Part shown: positions 1 to 63,100 of the stretch, one piece after another
How the letters are laid out: every line of letters begins with the position of its first letter
How positions within the stretch are numbered: position 1 is the stretch's first letter
Assembly: GCA_016415585.1 (NCBI GenBank)
Contig: CP066552.1
Location: forward strand, 3,968,001-4,032,000
Length of the DNA: 64,000 bases
Source of the DNA: Pectobacterium carotovorum
GTDB taxonomy: Bacteria > Pseudomonadota > Gammaproteobacteria > Enterobacterales > Enterobacteriaceae
Reading direction: 5' to 3'
Position numbers and translations under genes: made by a program
The notes under the pieces: model-generated
What the model saw: the letters and a program-made list of their open reading frames with translations, nothing else
Told to the model about the DNA's origin: nothing
The model's database searches: none

Positions 1-3000
1 TAATCTGGCGAGCCAGCGCTGTCGCATCCGCACGAGAAAGGGCAGCAGTGAAGGTCACGGTGAGCTTACCGTCCGCCTGCGCGAAGGTGGCTACCGCTTG
101 CCCGTCTTTGCTAATGACGCCATTCGCCAAGGTGAAACCGTTACCCGCAGTAAAATCGAAGCGATCGCTTGTTGAGGCCGTTTCACCGCGCTGTAGCGTG
201 ATGGAGGCACCCTGATAATTTCCCGCCCCGCCGTTCAGTGCATCCAGTTCTGCATCACTGAGAACGATAGAAGGCGCGACAATCACCGCTGGGCCATCAA
301 CGCGATAAACCGGCAGGCGTGAAGCCTCATCCAGCACCGACACGCCGTTGCCGAGCGTAATCAGACCACCGTCAACCGGCAGCAGATGAGTGAAGCCTGT
401 ACCCTCGTTTTTCAGCGTATCGAGTTTTGTCAGCGTCTCGCCGTTCAATACATAGCGAGTGAGCGCCCCGTCGCTTTGCGTGACGTACAGCACCCGCGCA
501 TCCGCAGCAAGGGCGATATGATTCACGGTGCCTTCTGCCGCCACGCGAGCAAGGTGTGTAAAGGTTCCCGTAGCGGTGTCCAGCGAGAAGGCATCGATCT
601 GCCCTGCACTGGCGACAAAGATGCTGCGGCCATCGGCGCTGACCGTGAGTTGCTCCAGCCCGGATAACGTCACCGAATTTCCTTGCGCATCCGTAAACTG
701 GCGCACATATCCCAATAGCGTCGGCTCACCGCTATCGCCACGCGTATACACAATCAGCGATGAACCATCATTAGCATTCGTAGTAACAAATACCAGATTG
801 CCACGGCTGACTATTTCGCTGGATTGCCACAGGTAAGGTTCACTCCACATACCGCCTTCGATAAGCCCAGCATAAGCAAGCTTGCCTGTCGCTGAATCGC
901 GGGTAAACCAGAGAAGGTTGTAGTTGTTGATGAGATACAGCGTCTTGCCATCATCAGACAGAGCGATCCCTTGGATGTCGTAAAGGTTGCTATTGTGTAT
1001 CTCGTAGTCATCAACGATGGTTTCTTTATGTTCCAGATTGCCTTCACTATTCCGGCTAAACCAAACAATCGCATTGCCGTCGGCACGCAGCGCATACACA
1101 CTGTTGCCATCGGCAGAAACCTGTAGCTGGCTTATTCCTGTCACGCCCTCTGCCGCCGCGAAGGTGCGCACATAGGTCAATTCGCCGCTGTCTGCATCTC
1201 GCTGGAATAACGCAATCGCGCCTTTATCATCGCTGACATACAGCGACAGCCCATCGGTCGTACGGGCGGCAGCCGTCAACGTGCCCAGCCCGCTAATCGC
1301 GGTGTAGGTATTCACCAAACGCAGTTCATCGGCAGAAAGCACTGGATCGTTCGCCACGACAGGCGTGTCGTTGATCGCGGTAATCGCTACCGACAAGGCC
1401 GTCACCTGAGACTCCAGATAGCGATCGGACAGCGTCACCGTCACTGCAACCTGCGCGGCTGGCGTACGGCTGTCGCTGGCGTAGGTAATCTGGCGCAGCG
1501 TATTCTGCACGTCTTCCGTGGTCGGAATTGTGCCTGCATTCGCGTTGAAGCGAATCGTCAGTACGCCATCCTGATTACTAACCTGAGCAATGGTGACGCC
1601 GTCTTTCTGAAGCGTATTGCCGGATAACGTCAGACCGTTTTCAGCACTGAAGCCCAGCTTATCCAGCGCCGTTTTACCGTCGCCCAGCGTAATCTTCAGC
1701 GTCGCGCCGTCGTAGTTGCCCTTGCCACCGTTGAGTTTGTCCATCTGTGCATCAGACACCGTCGCGTCCGGTGCCAGCACTATAGGGTCAGCGCGTTCGG
1801 TATACGTCGGCGTCGTCCCCGGAACCGTGATAATCGGCGCGGTATTGGTTTCTGCCGCAGGCACTAGCGTCAGCGTAATCGCCTGTTCCAGCGTGGTTTC
1901 CGGTGCAGTGCCGTTATAATCATTTTCCTTGATCATCAAGGTGACATGGCGTTCACCACTGGGAGCGCTGCCCAGATAGTTGTAGCCGATGCTGTCAATA
2001 ATCTCTGCGGTTCCACTCGCGCCTCTCCCGACATACAGGAGGACCGTCGCTTTACCGTCCTTCACATCAACAGAATATTGCAAGCCGCTGGCGGTGCGTG
2101 GAACACCGTTGGATTTTTCGAGCACAATCGTGCTGCCATCCACGCTAATCGTTTCGTTAGGCCCTGAGACATCAAACGTTAACACGACCTGCCAGAGGGT
2201 TTGTCCGCTCTCAATCGTGTCAATTTGGGTATCTTTAAACAGCTTAACGAACTCACCGTTGCCCGGAACCTGTGGGTTGAGCACCGTTGTATTCAATATC
2301 GCCGGATCGTTCACACCAACGAGATTGACGGTGATATCCATGTTAGCGGTGTTATTGTCGCCGTCATTAATACTGAAGATGAAGGTCGGCGACGATCCTG
2401 CTTGTTCAGGATCCTGACTGGTGTTCTGGTAAGTAATCTGGCGCAGCACATTTTGCGCCTCGGCTTTGGTTACCACTGCGATAAATTTAATCGTCAGCGC
2501 CCCATCCACTTGAGTAAAGGTCGCGATCGCGACGCCATCTTTCAGGATAGTGTTGCCATCAAGCGTTAAACCGTTTTCGGCCTTCAAACCAAAGGTATCT
2601 TCCGGTAGCCCACCATTTTCCCGACCAACGGTGATACTGGCACCGTTATAATCACCCACACCGTTATTTAACGCATCTAACTGCGGATCGGACAGACGAC
2701 CAGACGGCAGCAGCACTGTGGCATCGTTACCTTCGGTATAGCTTGCACCGGCGATGCCGACATTCAGAACATGGACCTTATCGCCACCAGTCAGATAGAG
2801 CTGCTTGCCATCGGCACTCAGTTCCACCTTTTGCAGATCGGAGAAAGAAATGCCAATCGGGCTATCCCAACCACCGCTAAGGGTGTCTTTCAGCGTCAGG
2901 CTGCCATCGTCCGCGCGGGAGAATACAGAAATGTTCTTCCCGATCACGAACAGGGCTGTGCCATCGGCAGAAACGACCAGATCGGTCGCTAACGCCTCGC

Positions 3001-25855: not shown

Positions 25856-27211
25856 TTACAGCGCCCAGCCGCCAGCGTAGAACACGACCAGCGCGACAGC
25901 AATCACCACGGTGCCGATGTTCAGTTTACGCCATTCGCCGGAGAAGATGCGGCCTAATACCAGCGCACCAAAACCCAGCATGATACCGGTCACGATGTTA
26001 CAGGTCAGCACGATGAATACGGCGCACACCAGACCGGACATGGCATCCACGAAGTCATCAAAATTCAGTTTGGAGACGTTGCCCAACATCAGCAGGCCGA
26101 CGTACATCAGCGCAGGTGCAGTGGCATAGCCAGGCACCAGATACGCTAACGGAGACACAAACAGCAGCAGCAGGAACAGCACACCGACTACGGTTGCCGT
26201 TAAGCCCGTTTTACCACCGGCTGCCGTACCCGCTGCGGATTCGATATAAACCGCCGCCGGAGATGTCCCGACCAGACTGGAGAAAATGCTGCTCACGGAG
26301 TCTGCGGTCAGGGCTTTACCACCGTTGATGATTTGCCCGTCTTTATCCAGCAGGTTCGCCTGTCCGGCTACAGCGCGGATCGTACCAGTGGCATCAAACA
26401 CAGCGGTCATCACCAACGCCAGTACGCTCGGCAGAACCATCGGCTGCAATGCGCCCATGATATCCAGACTGAAGATCAGCGATGAACCGTCAGCCGCTGT
26501 CAGGCTCGGCAACGCAAAGAAGCCAGCGTATTTTACATTCGGGTCAAAAATCAGTCCCAGAATAGAGATCGCAATGATAACCAGCAGAATACCGCCCGGC
26601 ACGCGACGCTTCTCTAAACCGATAGTCGCCGCCAGCCCCAGCAGGGACATAATGACAGGGAAAGAAGTGAAATTACCCAGCGCAACCGGCAGGCCGTCAA
26701 TCGGGTTTTTTACCACCAGACCTACACCGTTGGCGGCAATAATCAGCAGGAACAGACCGATACCAATCCCCGTACCATGCGCTACGCCCATCGGCAAATT
26801 ACGCAAGATCCAAGAGCGGATGCCCGTGACGGAAATGATGGTGAACAGCACACCCATCAGGAAGATCGCTCCTAGCGCTACAGGAATACTGATTTGTTGC
26901 CCCAGCACCAGGCTGAACGCGGTGAACGCCGTCAGCGAAATCGCGCAACCAATCGCCATTGGCAGATTAGCCCACAATCCCATCAGCAGCGACCCCAGCC
27001 CGGCAACCAGACAGGTTGCAACGAACACAGCGGTAGGCGGGAAACCAGCCTTGCCCAACATACTCGGAACCACAATGACGGAGTAAACCATAGCCAGAAA
27101 CGTCGTCAGGCCAGCTAACACTTCCTGACGTACGTTACTGCCGCGCTGTGTGATTTTGAAAAAAGCATCAAGAGGGCCCTGCGAGCCTGCCTGACGGGTG
27201 GTGTTTGACAT
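25856..27211 (-). CDS. ghxP: Guanine/hypoxanthine permease GhxP
   Basis: 451 aa from the ATG at 27211; an upstream extension to 27373 encodes no family-like sequence and runs into the ERIC element. It is an AzgA/NCS2-type purine transporter with about 12-13 membrane segments. The motifs [40 protein letters not shown] and [14 protein letters not shown] agree closely with E. coli GhxP (YjcD). It imports guanine and hypoxanthine by proton symport. The yjcE neighbour is the same as in E. coli. A PurR-like half-conserved site lies upstream, beyond the ERIC element. Confidence 0.93.
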
Positions 27212-27315
27212 GGTGGTATCCCCTGAAATGCCATTATTATTTAAGATCGATTCTGACGATTCCCGCGGCCTTGCTCCGCGAATGCACCAACATCGCTGGC
27301 GCATCATGAACCGTA

Positions 27316-27442
27316 TATACCCGTCATTCTTCAAGCTGCACGTGCGTTGGCTGCGTTCAGTCACCCGAATCACTTACTCAAGTAAGCTCATCGGGACTCC
27401 CTCTCTTGCCGCCTTCCTGCAACTCGAATTATTTAGGGTATA
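27316..27442. repeat. ERIC (intergenic repeat) element, 127 bp
   Basis: Its ends are TATACCCGTCATT and ATTTAGGGTATA. The central palindrome contains CACTTACTCAAGTAAGCTCAT. The length is exactly 127 bp, the standard ERIC size. It is a non-coding mobile-like repeat, about 105 bp upstream of ghxP. Confidence 0.88.
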
Positions 27443-27801
27443 GCCCCGCACGCAAACGATTAACTTGCTAGATGCAAAGCTGGAAAACGTTGTCGTATCA
27501 AGATATTGACGTATAAAACACTGCTGTATTAAACAGGCGGCACTAAAACAAGCTGGACAAAACGGCGCTAGGCAATAGAAGCGCGTGATTATCCCGCTTC
27601 ACCCGCGCTTATTTCAACTGCTAATCGAGACAATTTACCTATCTCACTTCATCTGTCCGATAAAGAAGCGCCCAGTCAGTACAGGTAATGCTCAATCAGG
27701 TAACTCGCTGAAAGTGGGTCAGTATGAAGAAAAAGCAGAAAGGGTTTTTAGACGGAAATCAAAACAGCGGTTTACTCCTCACAAACTGATCGTTCATTTT
27801 T
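27443..27801. other. Gene-free stretch with a PurR-like site
   Basis: I see no convincing gene. ACGCAAACGATTAACT at 27450-27465 matches the left half of the PurR operator (ACGCAAACGTTT-type) well and the right half poorly. E. coli ghxP belongs to the purine regulon, so a role for ghxP is plausible, although the ERIC element lies between. A 73-codon plus-strand frame at 27585-27806 has no family resemblance and ends inside the CRP site. Confidence 0.4.
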
Positions 27802-27874
27802 TGTGATTCGCATCACAAAAAAGTTGACCACCCGTATCAGTGCGAGTATTCTTAAAAACGTGAACAGCATCACA
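27802..27874 (+). promoter_or_regulatory. Promoter with two CRP sites for the small-protein unit
   Basis: A perfect CRP core, TGTGA-N6-TCACA, lies at 27802-27817. It is followed by a sigma-70 promoter, TTGACC at 27824-27829 and TATTCT at 27847-27852 with a 17-bp spacer. A second CRP-like core, CGTGA-N6-TCACA, lies at 27859-27874 over or just after the expected start of transcription. The upstream site is centred near -50 and the second near +8. Such an arrangement can give repression or dual control. The GAGGA ribosome site and small gene follow within 35 bp. Confidence 0.75.
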
Positions 27875-27907
27875 GAAAACAAATCAACTAACAACGAGGA
27901 AATGACC

Positions 27908-27979
27908 ATGAAACTGCTGAACAAAATCATCGCTATGTTTGAAAACATCAACATCAACTTTGGTACTTTCAACCAATAA
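27908..27979 (+). CDS. Very small protein, 23 aa, amphipathic
   Basis: The frame starts at the ATG at 27908, seven bases after GAGGA (27896-27900), which is better spaced than the ATG at 27902. It begins MKLLNKIIAMFENI and ends FGTFNQ. The middle can form an amphipathic helix with Leu/Ile/Phe on one face. It lies directly downstream of a good promoter and 28 bp before the AzuC-like frame. I do not recognise a named family. Expression is inferred from promoter, ribosome site and spacing. Confidence 0.65.
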   Translation: MKLLNKIIAMFENININFGTFNQ

Positions 27980-28007
27980 TTATTTAAGAATCGTGGGGAT
28001 AAAAAAG

Positions 28008-28094
28008 ATGCGCGTTGTCCGCAAAATCAATCAAATATTAAAAGCGTTGGGCAAAACCTATCGCGGTGTTAACCCCCACGCTATCTTCCGTTAA
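28008..28094 (+). CDS. AzuC-like very small protein, 28 aa
   Basis: 28 aa beginning MRVVRKINQILKALG and ending KTYRGVNPHAIFR, with a GGGGAT ribosome site about 9 bases upstream. Both the length and the C-terminal pattern KT-aromatic-basic-x-V-x-P-x-x-hydrophobic-FR match E. coli AzuC as I recall it, a 28-aa membrane-associated protein. The E. coli azuC transcript also acts as a carbon-responsive regulatory RNA, so this RNA may be dual-function. It shares the CRP-associated promoter with the 23-aa frame and ends before a terminator. The homology call rests on recalled sequence. Confidence 0.72.
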   Translation: MRVVRKINQILKALGKTYRGVNPHAIFR

Positions 28095-28121
28095 TCGTAC
28101 TTAAGTACGTTAACCACCATA

Positions 28122-28150
28122 AAATGGCTGCCATCCGGTAGCCATTTTTG
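28122..28150 (+). terminator. Rho-independent terminator of the small-protein unit
   Basis: The stem AATGGCTGCC/GGTAGCCATT (28123-28132 and 28137-28146) contains one mismatch, has a 4-nt loop and runs into a T-run. It ends the CRP-associated transcript after about 290 nt. Confidence 0.87.
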
Positions 28151-28276: not shown

Positions 28277-29200
28277 TCAGGCGTAGAGCGACACTTCCCC
28301 TACCGGGCGGGTTTTAAAGCGACGATGCAGCCAAAGATACTGCTCAGGCGCACGCATGATTTCTTTCTCAATCACCTTATTCATATAACACGCCGCAGCC
28401 TGCTCATCGTGGTAAGGGTAATCCTGTAATTCAGGCTGAATTACCAATTGATAGCCCGAAGCATCGGGCTTGCGAATCAACACTGTCGTCATCATCGCAG
28501 GCTTCGCCAGACGCGTGATGGTGAACGTGCCGCTGGTTGTCGCCGCCTTTTTCACCGCAAAGAATGGGGCAAAAACGCTGCCTTTAGGGCCGTAGTCCTG
28601 ATCGGGAGCAAACCATACCGCTTCGCCACGCTTCAGCGCCTGTACCATGCCACGCAGATCTTTACGGTCGATCATCGCCTTGTTCGAACGAGAACGCCCC
28701 CAGGTTTGTACCATTTCCATCGCTTTATTATTGTGTGGGCGGTACATCGCCATCATCGGCTGACACAGCCCCATCGCCCTGCCGCCTAATTCCAACGACA
28801 TAAAGTGAATGCCAATTACCATTACGCCCTGACCTTTTGCGGTAGCGTGCTGTAAATGTTCCAGCCCCGACACATCAAACCAGTGACGCACGCGGCGATC
28901 GGACCAGAACCAGGCCATACCGGTTTCGACCAACGCCATTCCGAGCGACGCAAAGTTGCTATCGATCATCGCTTCTCGTTCGTCATTGGAGATCGTGGGA
29001 AAGCACAACTCAAGATTGCGTCTGGCGATCGACACCCGGCGTTTCAGGAAGATACGAGATAGACGACCCGCGCTGCTCCCGATTTTCATCAACAGCGGGT
29101 AAGGGAGTTGAACTAATAAAAACAGCAAGCCAAGGCCAAACCAAGTCGCCCAATAGCGCGGGTGGAGTAATGCCCTGGTAAATGTTTGCTTAATTTTCAT
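28277..29200 (-). CDS. lpxP: Kdo2-lipid IVA palmitoleoyl/lauroyl acyltransferase, LpxP type
   Basis: 307 aa from the ATG at 29200, chosen because it places HPRYW at residue 13-17 as in E. coli LpxP; earlier ATGs at 29209 and 29236 exist. An N-terminal membrane anchor is followed by the acyltransferase site HFMSLE (HX4E), the substrate region MYRPHNNKAMEMVQTWGR and the C-terminal RRFKTRPVGEVSLY. The wording around these motifs is closer to LpxP than to LpxL. LpxP adds palmitoleate to lipid A in cold-grown E. coli. It acts at the cytoplasmic face of the inner membrane. Confidence 0.88.
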   Translation of the reverse strand: MKIKQTFTRALLHPRYWATWFGLGLLFLLVQLPYPLLMKIGSSAGRLSRIFLKRRVSIARRNLELCFPTISNDEREAMIDSNFASLGMALVETGMAWFWSDRRVRHWFDVSGLEHLQHATAKGQGVMVIGIHFMSLELGGRAMGLCQPMMAMYRPHNNKAMEMVQTWGRSRSNKAMIDRKDLRGMVQALKRGEAVWFAPDQDYGPKGSVFAPFFAVKKAATTSGTFTITRLAKPAMMTTVLIRKPDASGYQLVIQPELQDYPYHDEQAAACYMNKVIEKEIMRAPEQYLWLHRRFKTRPVGEVSLYA

Positions 29201-55868: not shown

Positions 55869-56064
55869 ACCCGTCATAATTCAAGCTGCATGTGCGTTGG
55901 CAATACTCGGCTCATCGCTGAGCCTCGCCCTGACGGGCCGCCGCAAGCGGCGTTCAAATTGGCTAAGCCAATTTGTCCTCGCTCACCCCAGTCACTTACT
56001 CGTGTAAGCTCCTGGGGATTCACTGCGTCGCCGCCTTCCTGCAACCCGAATTATTTAGGGTATT
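55869..56064. repeat. ERIC element with internal insertion, between gcvT and gcvH
   Basis: About 196 bp. Its outer ends (ACCCGTCATAATTCAAGCTG and ATTATTTAGGGTATT) and the core CGCTCACCCCAGTCACTTAC match ERIC. It is ~70 bp longer than the standard 127 bp owing to an insert that carries its own palindrome AAATTGGCT-A-AGCCAATTT (55956-55974). Inside the gcv transcript it will fold into strong RNA structure. Confidence 0.9.
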
Positions 56065-62716: not shown

Positions 62717-62803
62717 TGGTGCGAAGAGAGGGACTTGAACCCTCACGTCCGTAAGGACACTAACACCTGAAGCTAGCGCGTCTACCAATTCCGCCACCTT
62801 CGC
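62717..62803 (-). tRNA. leuQ: tRNA-Leu (CAG), third of the cluster
   Basis: 87 nt with CCA, long variable arm and anticodon CAG in GCTTCAGGTG. It differs from the other two copies by one base in the variable arm (GTCCTTACGG against GTTCTTACGG). Last gene in the direction of transcription. Confidence 0.96.
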
Positions 62804-62846
62804 ACTGAGAATGTTGTTTGTCTTATACAATAAATCTATCACGACA

Positions 62847-62933
62847 TGGTGCGAAGAGAGGGACTTGAACCCTCACGTCCGTAAGAACACTAACACCTGA
62901 AGCTAGCGCGTCTACCAATTCCGCCACCTTCGC
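62847..62933 (-). tRNA. leuP: tRNA-Leu (CAG), second of the cluster
   Basis: 87 nt with CCA and anticodon CAG. Identical to the upstream copy. Spacers to its neighbours are 43 and 80 bp, so one precursor is likely. Confidence 0.96.
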
Positions 62934-63013
62934 AACTCTGTCATGCAATAACTATGTCATGTAACACTGATTTACTGCTTCGGTTCGACAAACCAGAACC
63001 GTTGTAGCGATGT

Positions 63014-63100
63014 TGGTGCGAAGAGAGGGACTTGAACCCTCACGTCCGTAAGAACACTAACACCTGAAGCTAGCGCGTCTACCAATTCCGCCACCTTCGC
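63014..63100 (-). tRNA. leuV: tRNA-Leu (CAG), first of the cluster
   Basis: 87 nt with CCA and anticodon CAG, the major Leu tRNA reading CUG. It lies next to the promoter and is the first gene of the three-gene transcript, like E. coli leuV. Confidence 0.96.

Follow-up and report, generated by a model that had tools for sequence, protein, structure and literature searches.

Among the small RNAs that also encode a peptide, AzuCR of E. coli K-12 is the closest described relative of the locus analysed here; it is a short RNA ending in a terminator, it base-pairs with the cadA and galE mRNAs, and it encodes one peptide only, the basic, 28-residue AzuC. According to the main text of PMC8672173, AzuCR is repressed by CRP; the action of AzuC on GlpD is cited there and in PMC10746267. 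The same main text describes VcdRP of Vibrio cholerae, a small RNA with a CRP site upstream of the -35 box, which is repressed by CRP and encodes a 29-aa peptide, VcdP, acting on citrate synthase, as well as Spot 42 of E. coli, a CRP-repressed small RNA which also encodes the 15-aa peptide SpfP (PMC8672173).

The window, that is the whole stretch of 64,000 nucleotides of Pectobacterium carotovorum that was analysed, contains a short unit which is probably a CRP-repressed bicistronic small-protein mRNA, the second frame of which is gated by RNA structure (Table 1). What anchors this reading in the sequence are both frames and their conservation, the geometry of the CRP sites, a covarying helix and a constraint on silent sites. 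With AzuCR the unit shares the short RNA with its terminator, a 28-aa basic peptide (ORF2) similar by profile, and a CRP palindrome placed 6 nt before a TTG; it differs in having two peptides rather than one and in its position, since AzuCR lies between yecJ and yecR (near ftnA) whereas the window unit lies between the Xan_ur_permease and lipid A acyltransferase genes. By description the unit is also comparable to VcdRP, in which a CRP-linked RNA carries a peptide, and to Spot 42 / SpfP, each with a single peptide. Because ORF1 belongs to a peptide family of many enterobacteria, the gene would seem to be a new form of AzuCR as it is known from E. coli.

Table 1. Features of the two-peptide unit and its flanking genes (positions in the window)
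Feature	Position	Strand	Remark
Xan_ur_permease gene	25856-27211	minus	flanks the unit
CRP palindrome 1, TGTGATTCGCATCACA	27802-27817	+	putative; centre 27809.5, 6 nt ahead of the -35 box
Promoter, sigma-70 type, TTGACC / 17 nt / TATTCT	27824-27829 / 27847-27852	+	largely conserved in the genus
Predicted transcript, ~292 nt	about 27858-28149	+	start estimated from the distance in azuR (CRP centre -48.5)
CRP palindrome 2, CGTGAACAGCATCACA	27859-27874	+	putative; over the inferred transcription start
ORF1 ribosome site, GAGGA	27896-27900	+	
ORF1	27908-27979	+	23-aa peptide MKLLNKIIAMFENININFGTFNQ
CGTGGGG, 5' helix arm	27992-27998	+	holds the ORF2 ribosome site (GTGGGG)
ORF2	28008-28094	+	28-aa AzuC-like peptide MRVVRKINQILKALGKTYRGVNPHAIFR
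CCCCACG, 3' helix arm	28074-28080	+	near the end of ORF2
Intrinsic terminator	28121-28149	+	12-bp stem and T run
Lipid A acyltransferase gene	28277-29200	minus	flanks the unit on the other side

A first-pass annotation, made from the letters of the window, had described two frames, of 23 and of 28 aa, both preceded by a ribosome site and set between a promoter and a terminator; this layout is borne out by conservation, and the transcript of about 290 nt which it proposed agrees with the predicted length, the 5' end of which is placed by analogy with E. coli azuR. Taken alone, the promoter and terminator scans do not rise above shuffled sequence (one found in each case; 1.3 and 0.6 expected, respectively); the unit goes beyond chance because it is conserved in the genus, as are its CRP sites among relatives, and because ORF1 and ORF2 have amino-acid relatives elsewhere. 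The start that had been given for the unit, an upstream in-frame ATG at 27902, was replaced: this ATG is gone in two genomes of the same genus (L021 and L024) and, in the alignment of 14 two-peptide units, missing from the other genera except g130, so that 27908 is the better start of ORF1 and 27902 is ruled out. The annotation did not include the two CRP sites, the occurrence of ORF1 in other genera or the helix that covers the ribosome site of ORF2. The next gene lies on the opposite strand and the terminator precedes it; there is thus no co-directional downstream gene, unlike the arrangement of a leader peptide or attenuator. No family for the unit was found in Rfam (window and 16 loci) or in Pfam and NCBIfam, where the single Pfam line fell far under the cut-off. 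Elsewhere in the window, a repeat of ~127 bp at 27305-27450, presumably resembling an ERIC element, occurs at about 40 places in the genome (41 matches), with a second partial match at 56041-56064, and three tRNA-Leu (CAG) genes lie in tandem on the minus strand at 62717-63100.

The centres of the two putative CRP palindromes are 57 bp apart. In E. coli azuC, the distance from the CRP centre to the annotated 5' end of azuR is 48.5 bp, and 6 nt separate the site from the TTG; since this gap of 6 nt recurs in the window unit, the start of the latter is placed near 27858. A second CRP-like site of azuC is, by our own reading, imperfect and located inside the promoter. With CRP-cAMP at about -49 and about +8, the most likely outcome would be a blocked promoter, as suggested both by this geometry and by the CRP repression of AzuCR and VcdRP reported in the main text of PMC8672173; the RNA would therefore be made at low cAMP, when glucose or some other preferred sugar is available, just as is reported of AzuCR.

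Within the genus the unit is nearly invariant. A DNA search of 59 genomes found it in its own genome and in 24 of 24 genomes of the same genus, and in the same-genus alignment 86 of 87 columns of ORF2 and 67 of 72 columns of ORF1 do not vary, compared to none of the 45 columns past the terminator. Relative to the window, the 24 relatives carry no synonymous and one nonsynonymous change in ORF2 (pS 0.000), and five synonymous and three nonsynonymous changes in ORF1 (pS 0.017); the permease control gives a pS of 0.295 (24/24 rows; lowest of 319 28-codon windows, 0.173) and the acyltransferase control 0.424 (the 13 of 24 rows with at least 200 codons; lowest of 280 windows, 0.151). Values so far below those of the permease and the acyltransferase argue that not only the peptides but also the nucleotides themselves are under selection; any one of codon choice, RNA structure and base-pairing could have frozen the silent sites. 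In other genera the gap is narrower, the pS of ORF2 ranging from 0.155 to 0.521 versus 0.360 to 0.710 for the permease.

Beyond the genus, the two-peptide unit is present in 8 of the 154 genera searched, adjoining the same permease gene in each; of 16 two-peptide loci tested, 15, from all 8 genera, have this gene (the stretch of the remaining one, L163, begins just before the unit), compared to 0 of 26 other loci tested. Among 246 genomes of the family, ORF1 (queried in its L026 version) is matched in 42 at E <= 0.5 and in 34 at E <= 0.0013, and ORF2 in 16 at E <= 0.5, of which 14, from 8 genera, reach E <= 7.8e-4. Every one of these 14 strong ORF2 matches has an ORF1 match adjoining; in two cases the ORF1 match is weak (E 0.05 and 0.14), but reading of the loci confirmed it. 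The two other ORF2 matches (E 0.27 and 0.40) were taken as chance. A pattern of the first 24 bases of ORF1 retrieved 42 stretches from named genomes: a 23-aa member of the family is encoded by 37, a 16-aa short form by four (Ewingella, Hafnia, one unnamed Enterobacterales and one Citrobacter), and one, from Chloroflexi, was set aside as a chance match with no CRP palindrome upstream; two palindromes precede 36 of the stretches and one precedes five. ORF2 follows ORF1 in 15 of the 42 (11 Pectobacterium, 2 Brenneria, Prodigiosinella and Edaphovirga). The solo form of ORF1 is found in Enterobacter, Kosakonia, Kluyvera, Leclercia, Citrobacter and Pseudocitrobacter; atp genes are nearby in all five solo loci for which the flanks were read (L060, L153, L156, L164, L189), and g65 and the short 16-aa forms at L155 and L176 have other flanks. 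At the locus L077, the Rfam sRNA STnc410 (1679-1836, minus strand) is convergent to a solo ORF1 unit. A blastn search of the E. coli genomes detected no counterpart of the unit or of the L026 locus with its solo ORF1, a result at the DNA level, which a diverged peptide could escape. Among distinct copies, pN/pS is 0.20 for 28 solo ORF1 and, in two-peptide units, 0.35 for ORF1 and 0.33 for ORF2, the latter values covering 14 of 16 copies of each frame after copies of other length had been dropped, with three variants missed by the pattern outside the set. Start codons and ribosome sites recur across genera; conservation of the frames in relatives at the amino-acid level, on which the earlier two-peptide proposal had hung, is thus what was found.

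The relationship of the second peptide to AzuC is more complicated. That it is AzuC-like, as first proposed, holds as to profile similarity but not as to orthology, since the genome has a separate AzuC-like gene. By hhalign, the profile of ORF2 matches that of AzuC across 27 columns (probability 83%, E 8e-6) and that of a third CRP-linked family, of 32 aa, across 19 columns (92%, E 5e-7), and the 32-aa and AzuC profiles match only weakly (21%), all values resting on shallow, analyst-chosen alignments; ORF2 is about equally close to the 32-aa peptide as to AzuC. Column-shuffle z scores are 9.4 for ORF2 and AzuC, 8.6 for ORF2 and the 32-aa family and 4.5 for AzuC and the 32-aa family; with ORF1 they are 1.7 for ORF2, 2.8 for AzuC and 4.5 for the 32-aa family (0/300 shuffles). 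E. coli AzuC as a query matches 84 of the 246 genomes at E <= 0.5, and in the genome of the window the single match listed is C1:3653910-3653987 (E 0.001, 50% identity) rather than ORF2, which rules out ORF2 as the AzuC ortholog; the matched gene (L138), with a GTG start, the ending KDVPPGALF and its own CRP palindrome upstream, is the probable true ortholog. In an 8-sequence AzuC alignment Y, K and PPG are invariant, and ORF2 has NPHA in place of PPG. Taken together, the profile and shuffle scores suggest that ORF2 is probably a paralog of AzuC; ORF1 is best kept as a separate family, although its score with the 32-aa type would allow a remote link. In the genome G214 a second AzuC-like gene, MKIRAFFKDILDSYIKLFENAPKGGFF (L146), with CRP-like sites, is present besides an AzuC-like gene and the two-peptide unit.

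The gene of the 32-aa peptide MKMMRRISKFFKRMGDVYVSYCERIGSIISPF (G000:C1:3127857-3128054, L142; frame C1:3127959-3128054) has the same double-CRP promoter as the unit, followed by a terminator-like hairpin; its product resembles ORF2 in the N-terminal half, and it differs from the unit in encoding a single peptide, which ends in SPF, and in its locus. The type is matched in 12 of 246 genomes at E <= 0.1, ten of these, from 6 genera, at E <= 8.4e-6, and the exact double-CRP pattern stands ahead of it in 6 of the 10 strong-match genomes; the peptide string had no match in the literature searched. The pattern itself, defined as a pair of palindromes separated by 40-43 nt, is present in 43 of the 246 genomes of the family, compared to 0 for a reversed-pattern control. 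The 50 distinct sites include 42 ahead of an ORF of 16-33 aa, one (G260) ahead of a doubtful 47-aa frame and seven, counted here but set apart, ahead of a frame which we take to be an MFS-like transporter. These seven (L201, L209, L210, L211, L218, L226, L229) are without TTGA and have a conserved-looking hairpin between the CRP sites and the transporter frame; they represent a different regulated unit. The ORF types behind the promoter are ORF1 alone, ORF1 with ORF2, the 32-aa type and two 27-aa types (G160 and G283), the peptides of the latter, at L195 and L193, being MKLMKKINKLMKELGDIYLEAAKVTKY and MKIINFIKSLLEKQAEIHTLAAKLTLS. Of 295 genomes drawn from the order, eight match the double-CRP pattern, six of the 23 in the family and two of the 272 in other families, these two having, by script reading, neither TTGA nor a short ORF. 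Separately, a search for peptides in 8 loci found one in 6 of them. The genome of the window has two double-CRP loci, the window unit and the 32-aa gene; a third TGTGA-TCACA-TTGA match, at C1:4343028, was rejected, as a longer frame and no peptide follows it.

The predicted RNA, terminator included, has a more stable fold than any of 200 shuffles (z -3.15). Across 14 two-peptide transcripts, RNAalifold pairs the CGTGGGG holding the ORF2 ribosome site with the CCCCACG near the end of the frame, in a helix which begins 12 nt past the ORF1 stop codon. Of its 98 cells 92.9% are paired, versus 84.4 in shuffles and 33-65% in slid controls, and eight cells show a two-sided change versus 2.7 in shuffles, a number reached by 0 of 500; counted by pairs, two-sided changes affect 3 of 7, which 43 of 500 shuffles reach, and the count of pair types is ordinary (reached by 272 of 500). 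Pairs are broken in one Brenneria and in Edaphovirga; moreover, the two-sided changes stem from few events, and some of them fall where ORF2 has a His/Tyr replacement. The modelled structure suggests that ORF2 waits on ORF1 ribosomes or on another factor: ORF1 would be translated from its own leader ribosome site, and ORF2, whose ribosome site pairs with the last part of the frame itself, would be translated mainly once the helix has been opened, by a ribosome finishing ORF1 or by another factor. As to the fate of the products, the N-terminal amphipathic signal compared to shuffles is strong for ORF2 (0.004), weak for ORF1 (0.087; 0.029 for ORF1 of L026) and not significant for E. coli AzuC (0.132). 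The peptides, or at least that of ORF2, are probably associated with the inner membrane, either directly or through an enzyme located at it, and ORF2 may act, like AzuC, on a metabolic enzyme; we infer both place and target from AzuC.

It is quite possible, though we lean the other way, that the transcript has a dual or triple function and, as AzuR does, also base-pairs with target mRNAs through the near-invariant core of ORF2 or the 3' part. The AzuCR precedent, the terminator with its T run and the silent sites, frozen in the genus and under the permease value in the other genera compared, speak for such a role, while helices internal to ORF2 or codon choice may explain part of the constraint, and in some genera the difference is small (ORF2 pS 0.51 in L088 and 0.52 in L100, near permease values of 0.59 and 0.61; ORF1 pS 0.51 in L105 versus 0.60). 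That the unit is a non-coding sRNA, both frames arising by chance, would agree with the very high nucleotide conservation in the genus; it is nevertheless extremely improbable, since between genera amino acids are kept while nucleotides change (pN/pS 0.20-0.35), with the same start codons and ribosome sites recurring. Very unlikely, too, is that ORF1 is a mere leader which regulates the translation of ORF2 and whose peptide has no function: the stop codon just ahead of the helix over the ORF2 ribosome site would suit this role, but ORF1 also stands alone, with no relative of ORF2, in genera such as Enterobacter, Kosakonia, Kluyvera and Citrobacter, and has a pN/pS of 0.20 there.

The direction of CRP control is a matter of its own. 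CRP is able to activate from upstream sites, its usual activator positions being -41.5 and -61.5. A centre near -49 is therefore unusual, and activation is possible as well, site 1, a perfect TGTGA-N6-TCACA palindrome, serving as the activator site and site 2 modulating it. We regard this as unlikely, because the centre is off the usual positions, site 2 overlies the inferred start, and AzuCR and VcdRP, the latter via a site upstream of the -35 box, are both described as repressed in the main text of PMC8672173. Repression by CRP of a two-peptide mRNA thus remains the preferred reading.

The main-text passages searched on AzuCR, CRP-linked dual-function RNAs, Pectobacterium small proteins and sRNAs, and STnc410, among them PMC4710047, PMC11188072, PMC6049941, PMC10339803, PMC10746267 and PMC8672173, hold no description of the peptides of the unit, and five peptide strings had no match in the literature searched. 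AzuCR, Spot 42 and VcdRP show that CRP-repressed small RNAs can also encode peptides which tune metabolism; a promoter signature able to find such genes by sequence alone, together with a 23-aa peptide present in many genera yet not found in E. coli by DNA search, would make a gene class of these single examples, and the two-peptide form with its covarying helix over the second ribosome site makes it possible to test directly how a single short RNA accommodates both translation and RNA structure. More tentatively, and with some doubt on our part, the Enterobacteriaceae sensu lato may harbour a hidden group of small-protein genes switched by CRP, recognisable by a pair of CRP sites which flank the promoter at a distance of 57-58 bp from each other, and encoding peptides of 23, 28 and 32 aa and of two 27-aa types, which would report the sugar status of the cell to membrane enzymes; in Pectobacterium and its relatives two such peptides would be placed on one RNA, the second frame gated by structure, and, as this RNA may also base-pair, three functions would be combined on ~290 nt.
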